A stretch of DNA of 33,259 nucleotides from Sphingomonadaceae bacterium (GTDB lineage Bacteria; Pseudomonadota; Alphaproteobacteria; Sphingomonadales; Sphingomonadaceae): NCBI GenBank assembly GCA_021732525.1, contig JAKFUU010000049.1, positions 1 through 33,259 of the forward strand. Direction: 5' to 3'. Shown in pieces: positions 16,397 through 19,715 of this stretch. A program made the position numbers and the translations under genes. Under the pieces are notes generated by a model, which did no database searches, was not told where the DNA came from, and was given only the letters and a program-made list of their open reading frames with translations. Within the stretch, counting starts at the first letter, position 1. Each line of letters begins with the position of its first letter.

Positions 16397-16428
16397 GTCC
16401 ATCTATTTTCCGCGCAAAGGCGCGATGA

Positions 16429-16662
16429 TCAACCGTTGGCGTCGATAAATTCGATCGCATCTTTAACGGTCGCAATTTTCTCCGCGGCATCATCGGGGAT
16501 TTCAACGTTAAATTCCTCTTCAAACGCCATCACCAGCTCGACGATATCCAGGCTGTCCGCGCCCAAATCGTCAATGAAACTGGCAGCTTCGGTCACCTTG
16601 TCGGATTCGACGCCCAGATGTTCGACTACAATTTTTTTGACCCGGTCTGCGGTGTCGCTCAT
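16429..16662 (-). CDS. acpP: Acyl carrier protein
   Basis: Carries growing acyl chains on a 4'-phosphopantetheine arm. The 77-residue acidic protein has the invariant [18 protein letters not shown] motif, with S37 as the attachment site, and the terminal [11 protein letters not shown]. The start MSDTADRV is set by a strong AAGGGG ribosome site 8 bases upstream; an ORF extension of five codons is not needed. It lies between fabG and fabF, with 98 bp upstream of it that probably holds its own promoter. Confidence 0.97.
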
Positions 16663-16760
16663 AAAATGCCCCTTCAATGTTTGGGATGAATATTCTGTTG
16701 CTTTGCCCTAATGCGCACAAAGGCTTCTGGCAAGGGGGAGAGATGCATTTTGCTTTGGCA

Positions 16761-17501
16761 CTATGACATCATCGCCATCCCGCCATTTACATGTAATGTC
16801 TGTCCGGTGATATATCCAGCCTCGCGTGATGCCAAATAGGCCGCAGCCGCGCCAATATCGCCGCCATCGCCCATCCGGCCCATCGGGATGCGGGCATTCA
16901 GCGCCTCTTTTTGGGCATCGGCAAGCACGGCGGTCATTGGCGTTGCGATAAAGCCCGGCGCGATGCAGTTGACGGTAATGCCCCGGCTTGCCAGTTCCTG
17001 CGCCAATGCTTTGGACATGCCGGTAACCCCCGCCTTGGACGCGGCATAATTGGCCTGGCCTGGATTGCCCGTTGCGCCCACCACGCTGGTGACCGAGATG
17101 ATCCGGCCAAAACGCGCCTTCATCATCGGGCGCGCGGCGGCGCGGCAGAGGCGAAAATTGGATTCCAGATTAACGCGGATCACATCCGCCCATTCCTCAT
17201 CCTTCATCCGCATGGTTAGATTATCGCGGGTGATACCGGCATTGTTGATCAATATATCAATCTTGCCAAACGCCGCCAGCGCCGATGGGATCAGCGCCTC
17301 CACGCTGCCCGCATCGCTCAGGTCGCAGGGGATGGCAATATGATCGCCGCCCAGCATGTCGCGATAGGCGGCCAGCTTATCCGCGTTGCTGCCCGATACC
17401 GCCAGCCTTGCCCCCTGCCCCGCCAGCGCGCCGCAAATCGCCTGGCCAATTCCCCCCGATGCGCCGGTTACGAGCGCGGTCATTCCGGTTAGATCAAACA
17501 T
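16761..17501 (-). CDS. fabG: 3-oxoacyl-ACP reductase
   Basis: NADPH-dependent reduction of 3-oxoacyl-ACP in fatty-acid elongation. The 246-residue SDR shows the cofactor motif TGASGGIGQAI, the NNAG motif (ILINNAGITRDN), the catalytic Ser in ISVTSVVGATGNPGQ, and YAASK, then the conserved C-terminus GQTLHVNGGMAMMS. The start MFDLTG at 17501 is preferred over an ATG at 17513: the GGAG ribosome site is correctly spaced for 17501 and covers the other start. That ribosome site directly abuts the inverted repeat of the GxxExxY element, so everything upstream of fabG's translation start is element DNA. Confidence 0.96.
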   Translation of the reverse strand: MFDLTGMTALVTGASGGIGQAICGALAGQGARLAVSGSNADKLAAYRDMLGGDHIAIPCDLSDAGSVEALIPSALAAFGKIDILINNAGITRDNLTMRMKDEEWADVIRVNLESNFRLCRAAARPMMKARFGRIISVTSVVGATGNPGQANYAASKAGVTGMSKALAQELASRGITVNCIAPGFIATPMTAVLADAQKEALNARIPMGRMGDGGDIGAAAAYLASREAGYITGQTLHVNGGMAMMS

Positions 17502-17512
17502 TATTTTCTCCA

Positions 17513-17544
17513 TTTTTTCGCGCAGAGGCGCAGAGGCGCAGAGG
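17513..17544. repeat. Left terminal inverted repeat of the GxxExxY element
   Basis: T-run, then CGCGCAGAG followed by two further (G)CGCAGAG units and GG; three tandem 8-mers GCGCAGAG. Reverse complement of the right arm apart from G/A differences at the unit junctions and a 2-base length difference. Confidence 0.75.
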
Positions 17545-17545
17545 A

Positions 17546-17926
17546 TCAGTAATTATTGACGAGACGCTTGATACCTTCCTTGAGAGTAGCCCCGCCAAAA
17601 TTGATAATTAGCCCTACGGGCTGTTTTGTCAGACGTAAATAAGTGAGTAACTGCTTTGCATGGACGGGATTCAACCGTTCCACGGATTTGATTTCCAGTA
17701 TAAGTTGGTCATTTACAAGCAAATCGATACGAAATGCGCCGGTAAATGAGATACCTTCAAATTCGAAATCGACCGCCTTTTGGCGGTCAACTTTATATCC
17801 CATTTCGATAAGTTTCGCCGCCAGCACCGTTTCATAGACAGTTTCGAGCAGGCCCGGACCAAGCGTCTTGTGGAGCCGAATAGCCAAATTCACCACATCA
17901 CCGGTAATTTGATCAATTTGCTTCAT
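17546..17926 (-). CDS. GxxExxY protein (PD-(D/E)XK-like)
   Basis: A 126-residue member of the GxxExxY family: the name-giving motif is G25-L-L-E28-T-V-Y31 within LGPGLLETVYE. A PD-(D/E)XK nuclease-like core follows: RIDLLVNDQLILEIKS, with D68, E78 and K80 in the positions of the metal-binding triad; then H89-x-x-Q92 and TYLRLTKQPVGLIINFG, the usual family C-terminus. A GGAGG ribosome site lies just before the ATG, inside the inner edge of the right repeat; the stop is one base from the left repeat. Biochemical role is not established; nuclease activity is an inference from the fold. It is unrelated to fatty-acid synthesis and looks like an insertion. Confidence 0.9.
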   Translation of the reverse strand: MKQIDQITGDVVNLAIRLHKTLGPGLLETVYETVLAAKLIEMGYKVDRQKAVDFEFEGISFTGAFRIDLLVNDQLILEIKSVERLNPVHAKQLLTYLRLTKQPVGLIINFGGATLKEGIKRLVNNY

Positions 17927-17936
17927 AAACCCTCCA

Positions 17937-17968
17937 CCTCTCCGCGTCTCTGCGTCTCTGCGCGAAAA
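17937..17968. repeat. Right terminal inverted repeat of the GxxExxY element
   Basis: Reads CCTCTCCGCG, then TCTCTGCG twice and CGAAAA on the plus strand. It is the inverted counterpart of 17513-17544. The ribosome site of the GxxExxY gene starts at its inner edge. Confidence 0.75.
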
Positions 17969-17970
17969 TA

Positions 17971-18780
17971 TTATTCCCCCGTGAAATTCGGACTGCGTTT
18001 TTCGGTGAAGGCATCGATGGCTTCGTCATTGTCGCGGGTGGCATGCGCGAGGGATTGCATCGCGGCGGCCATTTCGAGGCTGTTTTTGAGATCTGTCGTC
18101 TGCCCCTCGCGCAATAGCCGTTTGGTCATCCGCACCGCATGCGGCGGATTGGCGGCGATTTTTTCGGCCACCATACGCGCAGCCGCCATCAATTCACCAT
18201 CGGGAACCACGCGGGCGACCAAGCCAATCGCGAGAGCCTCCTGCGCGCCGATCATCTCCCCGGTCAGCGCCAGCTCGGTGGCCTTAGAAAAGCCGATAAT
18301 GCGGGGCAGCAGCCACGCGCCGCCGTCGCCCGCAATGATGCCCAGCTTCACAAAGCTTTCGGCAAATTTGGCCGATTGCGCCGCGATTCGAATATCGCAC
18401 ATGCAGGCAAGGTCGCATCCCGCGCCAATCGCCGCGCCATTGATCGCCGCAATGACGGGAATTTCGAGCGCCTGAAACATCAACGGCAAACGTTGAATGC
18501 CATATTTATAATTGCGCCGCGTTTGCACCGGATTTTCGGCTTTCAACCCGCCGGTGCCCGCCTTCATCTGCTTGAGATCACCGCCCGAGGAAAAGGCGCT
18601 GCCCGCGCCTGTTAAGATGACACAGCGGACGCCGATATCCCGGTCCGCGCCCTCAAACGCCGCGCATAGAGCGTCAATCACGCGATTTTCGGAGATTGGA
18701 TTGCGCCGTTGGGGCTGATTCAGCGTGATCGTTAAGATCGCGCCGTCTTGTTCCAATTTTACCCATTCCCTATCTGTCAT
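17971..18780 (-). CDS. Crotonase-family protein (enoyl-CoA hydratase/isomerase-like)
   Basis: A 269-residue crotonase-fold protein acting on acyl-CoA. The oxyanion-hole segments are visible (SAFSSGGDLKQM near residue 65, and INGAAIGAGCDLACMCDIRIAA near 115). The two catalytic glutamates of classical enoyl-CoA hydratase are not conserved: the first position is Asp (GCDLA) and the second falls in AESFVKLGIIAGDGGAW, where a hydrophobic residue replaces Glu and an Asp appears in GDGG, as in isomerase-like relatives. Hydratase activity is therefore uncertain. The ATG overlaps the fabD stop (ATGA), so it is coupled to fabD. It separates fabD from fabG, which often lie together. Confidence 0.87.
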   Translation of the reverse strand: MTDREWVKLEQDGAILTITLNQPQRRNPISENRVIDALCAAFEGADRDIGVRCVILTGAGSAFSSGGDLKQMKAGTGGLKAENPVQTRRNYKYGIQRLPLMFQALEIPVIAAINGAAIGAGCDLACMCDIRIAAQSAKFAESFVKLGIIAGDGGAWLLPRIIGFSKATELALTGEMIGAQEALAIGLVARVVPDGELMAAARMVAEKIAANPPHAVRMTKRLLREGQTTDLKNSLEMAAAMQSLAHATRDNDEAIDAFTEKRSPNFTGE

Positions 18781-19715
18781 AGCTGCTTCAGCAAAGCCTC
18801 CATATCATCCATCGTTATAATGCTGGCCGCGCTCACCCCGTCGCCGGCGCTGCGTTTCACCATGGGGCACAGCAGCTTGCCGCCGAGTTCGACAAATTCG
18901 GTGACGCCAGCCGCCGCCATCGCGCCAATGCTTTCGCGCCAGCGCACCCGGCCAGTGACCTGTTCGACCAGCTGCGCGGTGATGATCGCGGGATCGGACA
19001 CCGGCGCGGCGGTAACGTTGGCGTAAAGCGGCACGCATGGCGCATGTATCAAAATATCGGCCAGCGCATCGGCCATCACGGCGGCCGCGCTCTGCATCAA
19101 TGGGCAATGGAACGGCGCAGAAACGGGCAGTTTGATACCGCGTTTGATGCCGTAATCCTTGGTCAGAGCAATCGCCCGGTCAACCGCGCCGATATGCCCC
19201 GAAATGACCACTTGCGAAGGATCATTATCATTGGCGACGCAGCATATTTCGCCCTGCGCCGCTGCCTCCGCCAGGCTTTCGGCTTTTGCGATATCCGCGC
19301 CCAGCAAAGCCGCCATCGCGCCAATGCCGACCGGAACCGCCGCCTGCATCGCGGACCCGCGCAATTTCAGCAGCTTTGCCGTGGTCGCCAAATCCAGCGC
19401 GCCCGCCGCGCATAAGGCGGTATATTCACCCAGCGAATGCCCCGCGACAAAGCGCGCCTTATCCGCCAGCTTCGCTCCGCCCTCGGCCTCCATCACGCGC
19501 AAAGTCGCAACCGCATTGGCCATGATTGCGGGTTGCGCATTGGCGGTCAGGGTTAATTCCTCCTCCGGCCCCTCGCACATTAAGCGAAAGAGATTTTGCC
19601 CCAGCGCCTCATCCACTTCTTGAAATACCGCCTTGGCCGCAGCGCTGGCGGCGGCGAGATCTTTGCCCATACCCACGGCTTGGCTGCCTTGTCCGGGAAA
19701 AATAAATGCGCGCAT
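18777..19715 (-). CDS. fabD: Malonyl-CoA:ACP transacylase
   Basis: Transfers malonyl from CoA to ACP, the entry step of fatty-acid synthesis. The 312-residue protein begins AFIFPGQGSQAVGMG and has the nucleophile motif VAGHSLGEYTAL (S94), the malonate-binding Arg region (LKLRGSAMQ), and SAPFHCPLM with the catalytic His. Two adjacent ATGs (19718, 19715) are possible; the second is better spaced from AAAGGA. It starts 31 bp after ldcA and overlaps the crotonase gene by ATGA. Confidence 0.96.
   Translation of the reverse strand: MRAFIFPGQGSQAVGMGKDLAAASAAAKAVFQEVDEALGQNLFRLMCEGPEEELTLTANAQPAIMANAVATLRVMEAEGGAKLADKARFVAGHSLGEYTALCAAGALDLATTAKLLKLRGSAMQAAVPVGIGAMAALLGADIAKAESLAEAAAQGEICCVANDNDPSQVVISGHIGAVDRAIALTKDYGIKRGIKLPVSAPFHCPLMQSAAAVMADALADILIHAPCVPLYANVTAAPVSDPAIITAQLVEQVTGRVRWRESIGAMAAAGVTEFVELGGKLLCPMVKRSAGDGVSAASIITMDDMEALLKQL

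Follow-up and report, generated by a model that had tools for sequence, protein, structure and literature searches.

The inverted repeats that surround GxxExxY genes suggest an undescribed kind of mobile DNA. Gene-bearing and gene-less mobile units with common ends are well supported by our data, and on balance we consider it probable, though by no means assured, that they form a mobile-element family driven by the GxxExxY nuclease; the family would work like RAYT-REPIN or IS-MITE systems but belong to neither. Movement of the units by the nuclease itself is inferred. The starting point was the window, i.e. the whole 33,259-nt stretch analysed here, contig C28 of a genome that comprises 3.0 Mb in 68 contigs.

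The window carries a GxxExxY gene of 126 codons on the minus strand (17546..17926), identified by its ORF, profile matches, alignment and a structure model. It lies between two inverted-repeat arms of 32 nt, one on its upstream side (17940..17971; ATATTTTCGCGCAGAGACGCAGAGACGCGGAG on the minus strand) and one on its downstream side (17512..17543), which are 88% complementary to each other and consist of tandem 8-nt units: positions 17520-17543 are three tandem copies of GCGCAGAG. With up to two mismatches, CGCAGAGNCGCAGAG matches four times in the window, always inside the two arms, compared with a mean of 0.28 in shuffled windows, none of which (0/100) reached four. A chance origin of the repeat is thus ruled out by the shuffles, together with the offset controls at GxxExxY loci described below, and the inverted repeats of tandem units reported in the earlier note are confirmed. 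The gene between the arms is GxxExxY, and no transposase gene is present in the unit. An Rfam search of positions 16400-19000 returned no RNA family match at E up to 1.

Upstream of the unit lies a crotonase/enoyl-CoA hydratase gene (17971..18780, minus strand), and this gene and the upstream arm have their last base in common; downstream lies fabG (16761..17501, minus strand). The unit had been described as sitting exactly between the crotonase stop codon and the fabG ribosome site. Its position is as described, but the fabG start that agrees with relatives is the ATG at 17501 and not the one at 17513. The longest fabG ORF, starting at 17513, has four extra codons that fall within the duplicated copy of the ribosome site.

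Comparison with relatives indicates how this junction may have arisen. We looked for crotonase relatives in 99 genomes and read the best 30 loci, namely the window and 29 others, all from the same genus. The crotonase-fabG junction is empty in 27 of these 29, with a single nucleotide from stop to start (..GGAGAATAA-N-ATG or near variants, for example ACAGGAGAATAA-T-ATG); the remaining two, L050 and L052, contain a different GxxExxY unit with CGCGGAG repeats. Empty sites in close relatives, which had been set as a check, do therefore exist. Judged from these comparisons, the window junction looks imperfectly duplicated over about 13 bp, with a putative crotonase-side copy (GGGGGAATAATAT; 17968..17980, minus strand) and a putative fabG-side copy (GGAGAAAATAATG; 17499..17511, minus strand) that comprises the ribosome site and start codon. 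A duplication, likewise listed as a check, is visible, although its copies are imperfect and no exact long repeats were seen. The tail of crotonase and the ribosome site and start of fabG would both be intact because about 13 bp were apparently duplicated; the absence of an older spacer, also claimed earlier, follows from this apparent duplication and from the 1-nt empty junction of the relatives.

The protein matches PF13366 (E 2.6e-36; 125 bits against a cut-off of 22) and TIGR04256 (E 8e-37; 126.2 bits against a cut-off of 35), the only two families matched at E 1e-3, and one search returned 7692 relatives. The PD-(D/E)XK-like residues pointed out at the outset are conserved: among 71 aligned relatives D68 and K80 are kept in at least 90%, and E78 and Q92 are invariant. 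The predicted model (pLDDT 93.9) places D68 in strand 59-71 and E78 and K80 in strand 75-80, and matches PDB structures of the PD-(D/E)XK nuclease fold; in the model the protein is a compact nuclease of this type, and no solved relatives were found by sequence. Viral proteins are among the matches in the fold search, the best being G8DDC4 (E 5.5e-9), and Halogranum tailed virus 1 contributes a PD-(D/E)XK nuclease. In a tblastn search with the window protein, none of 50,697 phage records and 8 of 72,556 plasmid records gave a match. Several close relatives are named 'iron complex transport system substrate-binding protein' by one source, probably a mis-transferred name. GxxExxY, TIGR04256 or PF13366 is mentioned in three of the papers searched, PMC8934634 among them. 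In the literature searched, which comprised neither bioRxiv nor most subscription journals, we found no function for GxxExxY proteins and, partly by narrow phrases, no description of repeats around their genes.

The arrangement in the window is not an isolated case. Of 296 genomes from the window's order, 56 have a PF13366 match, with up to eight per genome, and 82 loci were read (76 from across the order, four from the window's genome, and L050 and L052), a few of which are broken copies. Inverted repeats were scored by local alignment of the upstream flank with the reverse-complemented downstream flank. A threshold score of 30 was reached by 80 of the 82 loci and by none of 328 offset controls at the same loci, and short TTCAC... 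arms are still visible at the two loci below it. These numbers, controls included, refer to widened flank windows, adopted because ORFs extend into the downstream arm; a first run with narrower windows gave 53/82. A second control with narrow windows, which paired the upstream flank of one locus with the downstream flank of another, reached scores of up to 69 (99% at 46), but it is uninformative on pairing within a locus because arms are similar between loci. Read from the outer edge inward, the arms show the xAG strand in 78 loci, with ties at the other four, and the unit measures 437-481 bp in 79 of the 82, which is space for the GxxExxY gene only. GxxExxY genes are thus regularly flanked by repeats, a point for which a survey had been proposed, both in the order and, at 23 of 30 loci, in other phyla. 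At L040/L288 and L293 the arms of the GxxExxY gene have the reversed orientation, with CTCTGCG... inward from the outer edge.

The genes occupy a few recurrent slots. The fabD (or crotonase)|fabG slot holds 32 of the 82 genes and a second slot 13, other slots having smaller sets; at L001 the second slot is carboxynorspermidine synthase|nspC, with both neighbours below NCBIfam's cut-offs. Slot labels change 16 times on a tree of 78 proteins, compared with a shuffled mean of 43.5, and distances between GxxExxY proteins follow those between their fabD/fabG neighbours, with clear exceptions (Mantel r 0.44, 0/2000, 30 loci). A freely scattering transposon is ruled out for the gene by these recurrent slots. 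Vertical inheritance is ruled out as a complete account by empty sites, remnants and slot replacement. Remnants and empty sites were seen in the genus of genome G330, in which 61 genomes were searched, 58 had fabD and 50 fabD-fabG loci were read: a full GxxExxY gene is found in 22, and none in the other 28, where the gap is 9-25 nt in 17, 41-169 nt in 9 and about 1.25 kb in 2. L204 retains the arms and an internally deleted gene, and L202 a gene tail and one arm; by their sequence, both look like remnants of lost units. As to replacement, 17 pairs of loci have fab DNA at least 90% identical (90-94%; duplicate reads removed, some loci shared between pairs), and the identity of their GxxExxY proteins is 0.945-0.992 in three pairs and 0.635-0.754 in fourteen, with none between; one pair just under the cut (fab 0.899) has an intermediate identity of 0.841. 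Because very different proteins occur beside fab genes that are 90-94% identical, the slot appears to have been refilled by different lineages. The protein is under strong purifying selection: six pairs have a dS below 1, and their dN/dS is 0.06-0.19.

Such turnover in fixed places could also be produced by a homing-like cassette: its nuclease would cut a slot that is empty or occupied by a rival, and recombination in the conserved genes on either side would copy the unit into it; units would then spread between alleles at fixed sites, and gene-less units would be other things or derivatives. The few recurrent slots, the near-identical (3/17) or very different (14/17) proteins of the fabD|fabG slot and the patchy presence of PF13366 across genomes are all consistent with this account. 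It leaves unexplained the inverted repeats, the gene-less units at unrelated sites and the association of unit ends with the gene, and we regard it as rather unlikely. Purifying selection, a position among operon genes of one direction in those slots that were read closely, and the long complementary arms might instead indicate a host nuclease with a cellular role, surrounded by regulatory or RNA-processing hairpins of operon gaps rather than by transposon ends. A host gene of this kind would hardly be limited to 56 of the order's 296 genomes, be missing from 28 of 50 fabD-fabG loci in one genus and leave apparent remnants such as L204 and L202; nor does it account for crotonase|fabG and nuoC|nuoD sites that are empty in most relatives. 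We give this explanation very little credence. The proposal of a minimal mobile unit stands in part: empty sites, the imperfect duplication and the regular flanking repeats speak for it, but the gene is found at recurrent slots and is not scattered.

The repeat ends also occur without the gene. The window's genome has four PF13366 genes. The one on contig C1 shares the repeat type of the window unit, and different arms (TTTCATGCAAAGATAAGAAG..., GTAAAAAAGGCGGGAAG...) flank those on C5 and C2. In addition the genome contains four gene-less units, three on C4 and one on C9, whose ends are TTTCGCGCAGAG or TTCACGCGGAG. The 19 places found in this genome at up to one mismatch are accounted for by two GxxExxY genes, these four gene-less units and two lone matches at which no paired arm was seen. 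All three units on C4 lie in the nuo operon, at nuoI|J, nuoE|F and nuoC|D, and these junctions were compared in 20 relatives. At nuoC|nuoD, where ATGAGC flanks both sides of the gene-less unit, the genes overlap without an insert in 17 of the 20, and unrelated repeats are present in three. Both nuoI and nuoJ are found in 14 relatives, with a spacing of 11-33 nt in 12 and other inserts in two, one of which is an inside-out CGCAGAG hairpin. The spacing of nuoE|F, with both genes in 19 relatives, is highly variable, and the unit of the window's genome is absent from the junctions read, three long ones having been read in part. L252, L253 and L262 carry unrelated inverted-repeat families, of GTCATCCTGAA... 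and CCCCGCGAAAGCGGGGATC types, at the nuoC|nuoD stop/start overlap, where the window's genome has its CGCAGAG unit. Judging by these sequences, insertions seem to land often at tight operon junctions.

Across the order, the pattern TTCNCGCRRAGNCGCRRAG has 823 matches in 71 of 296 genomes, its reversed control four. The ends are found in 47 of the 56 genomes with PF13366 and in 24 of the 240 others (Fisher 1.4e-27, kinship ignored). These counts include the arms of the GxxExxY genes themselves; after removal of two matches per gene the ends are found in 36/56 versus 24/240 (1.5e-16, kinship again ignored). Zero matches were found in nine of the 56 genomes with the gene. The 42 arm pairs read span 78-201 bp, nested units counting as more than one pair. 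Gene-less arms match the GxxExxY ends of their own genome better (0.72) than those of shuffled genomes (0.59; 25/5000), and do so in 14 of the 16 genomes with usable ends, by a score based on three variable positions and the listed places only. The interiors of gene-less units match GxxExxY ORFs over 13-34 nt only, and we take these matches to be the repeats because some of those ORFs extend into the arm. An origin of the gene-less units as deleted gene copies was rejected on these grounds, L204 alone looking like one.

The main counter-evidence to nuclease-driven movement is the occurrence of units in genomes without the gene. Six genomes (G104, G225, G238, G045, G160 and G252) have 8-25 pattern matches, the maximum of 25 in G104, and PF13366 was not found in them; loss of the gene would explain this, or else the units can be moved by another agent. 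Inside-out hairpins, with TTC ends facing each other across a short spacer, were seen at L344-L346 (G252, G160, G045) and L251 (G036). Possibly the gene is a passenger, and another transposase or the host recombination machinery recognises the ends and moves gene-bearing and gene-less units alike. The ends that occur where PF13366 has no match fit such a history, including the concentric nested units, i.e. unit inside unit, of G104 (L328, L330, L332, L336) and G225 (L340), as does the fact that no strand-joining activity has been shown for GxxExxY. A passenger, however, would not be expected to be under purifying selection or to covary with the repeat type over several phyla, and the 19 places in the window's genome revealed no longer unit with the same ends. 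We judge this explanation unlikely; the GxxExxY nuclease is the more probable driving agent.

This covariation emerged from seven contigs of other phyla (Neomarinimicrobiota, Chthoniobacteraceae, three Planctomycetaceae, Chlorobi and Acidobacteria), all of which have such arms (scores 25-67), and from their genomes, with 1-12 PF13366 matches each. At 30 loci, which include the contigs' own genes, scores of at least 30 were found in 23 and of at least 28 in 25, versus 1 of 115 controls; as L296 and L298 are halves of one place, 22 of 29 distinct places reach 30. Two types of arm can be distinguished, with xAG units (CGCAGAG, CACGGAG) or xAT units (CGCGGAT, CACGGATT, CGCAGATT), and both occur together in six of the seven genomes. 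In a tree of 25 of the 30 loci (L289, L290, L294, L296 and L298 left out) and 15 proteins from the window's order, a single branch separates the two types (support 100/98, 0/500 shuffles). Labels were given by eye, the 15 proteins as a block (AG); a mechanical count agrees for 23 of the 25 and leaves L272 and L292 uncalled. A label was also given to L279, where the control (23) outscores the arms (20), and L272, L284 and L297 score only 25-26. The AT-type pattern has 28 matches in G396, 27 in G400 and 3-5 in G395, G398 and G401, all with an AT-type gene; in the window's order, 13 genomes have 0-4 each. No AT-type match was found in G397, which also has an AT-type gene, and G399 has 23 matches with no AT-type gene found. 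The suggestion that the protein acts on its own repeats thus receives indirect support from the covariation and from the end match within genomes, although covariation is also expected from physical linkage. The wider reading, that a lone GxxExxY nuclease moves its own gene and gene-less units across phyla as an analogue of RAYT-REPIN, with at least two repeat dialects (xAG and xAT), is in our view tentative and falls somewhat short of probable; as part of it, the analogue would stem from an unrelated nuclease and the dialects would be paired to two branches of the protein.

In the element we propose, a single GxxExxY gene, some 120-150 codons long, would be bounded by terminal inverted repeats built of tandem 8-10-nt units, which in the window are of the TTC-N-CGCRRAG type. 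The PD-(D/E)XK protein may bind the repeated units in dimeric or multimeric form and cut at the element ends, which would mobilise its own unit and, in trans, gene-less units. Mobilisation in trans, already raised in the earlier note, is favoured by the gene-less units with the same ends. The gene would be mostly resident in a few operon slots and maintained by purifying selection, and the gene-less units would form a genomic population as REPINs do beside RAYT. PD-(D/E)XK enzymes cut DNA, but we know of none that joins strands unaided, which leaves the integration step without a shown agent.

Several known systems resemble these units in part. RAYT tyrosine transposases are of the HUH type, whereas the GxxExxY protein is modelled as PD-(D/E)XK and not as a tyrosine transposase. 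A REPIN-RAYT system (PMC3116915, PMC8049555) has a gene flanked by repeats and dispersed intergenic hairpin doublets with the same ends, which are more frequent in genomes having the gene. Excision of REPINs has been looked for by deep sequencing of populations (PMC3116915). GxxExxY is likewise a resident gene flanked by repeats, and its dispersed short units are intergenic, share the ends of the gene and are commoner where the gene is present (kinship ignored). It differs in arms of tandem 8-10-nt units, in several copies per genome (up to 12 matches) and in a slot apparently refilled by different lineages. With IS and MITE elements the units have in common terminal inverted repeats and gene-less relatives, and the imperfect copies at the window unit may represent a target duplication; in contrast to them, the window's gene matched no transposase family, and the gene-less interiors are unlike deleted gene copies, except in L204. 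A resident RAYT-like gene with dispersed satellites comes closer to our observations than an ordinary selfish element. Free-standing homing endonuclease genes are alike in having a nuclease-type gene in a conserved slot, empty alleles and turnover, and differ in the inverted repeats and the gene-less dispersed units of GxxExxY. Cas4 proteins, of which SSO0001 (PDB 4ic1) is presumably one, have conserved cysteines for an Fe-S cluster; unlike Cas4/RecB-like nucleases, the GxxExxY protein has 126 residues and no cysteine, and the predicted common fold gives no function.

The match between repeat and protein makes the nuclease-driven reading directly testable. The PD-(D/E)XK superfamily is not known to act alone in transposition. 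If the reading is true, transposition would gain a further nuclease superfamily, the common intergenic repeats, many of them so far unexplained, would have an origin, and the abundant GxxExxY proteins, a large orphan family, would acquire a function.
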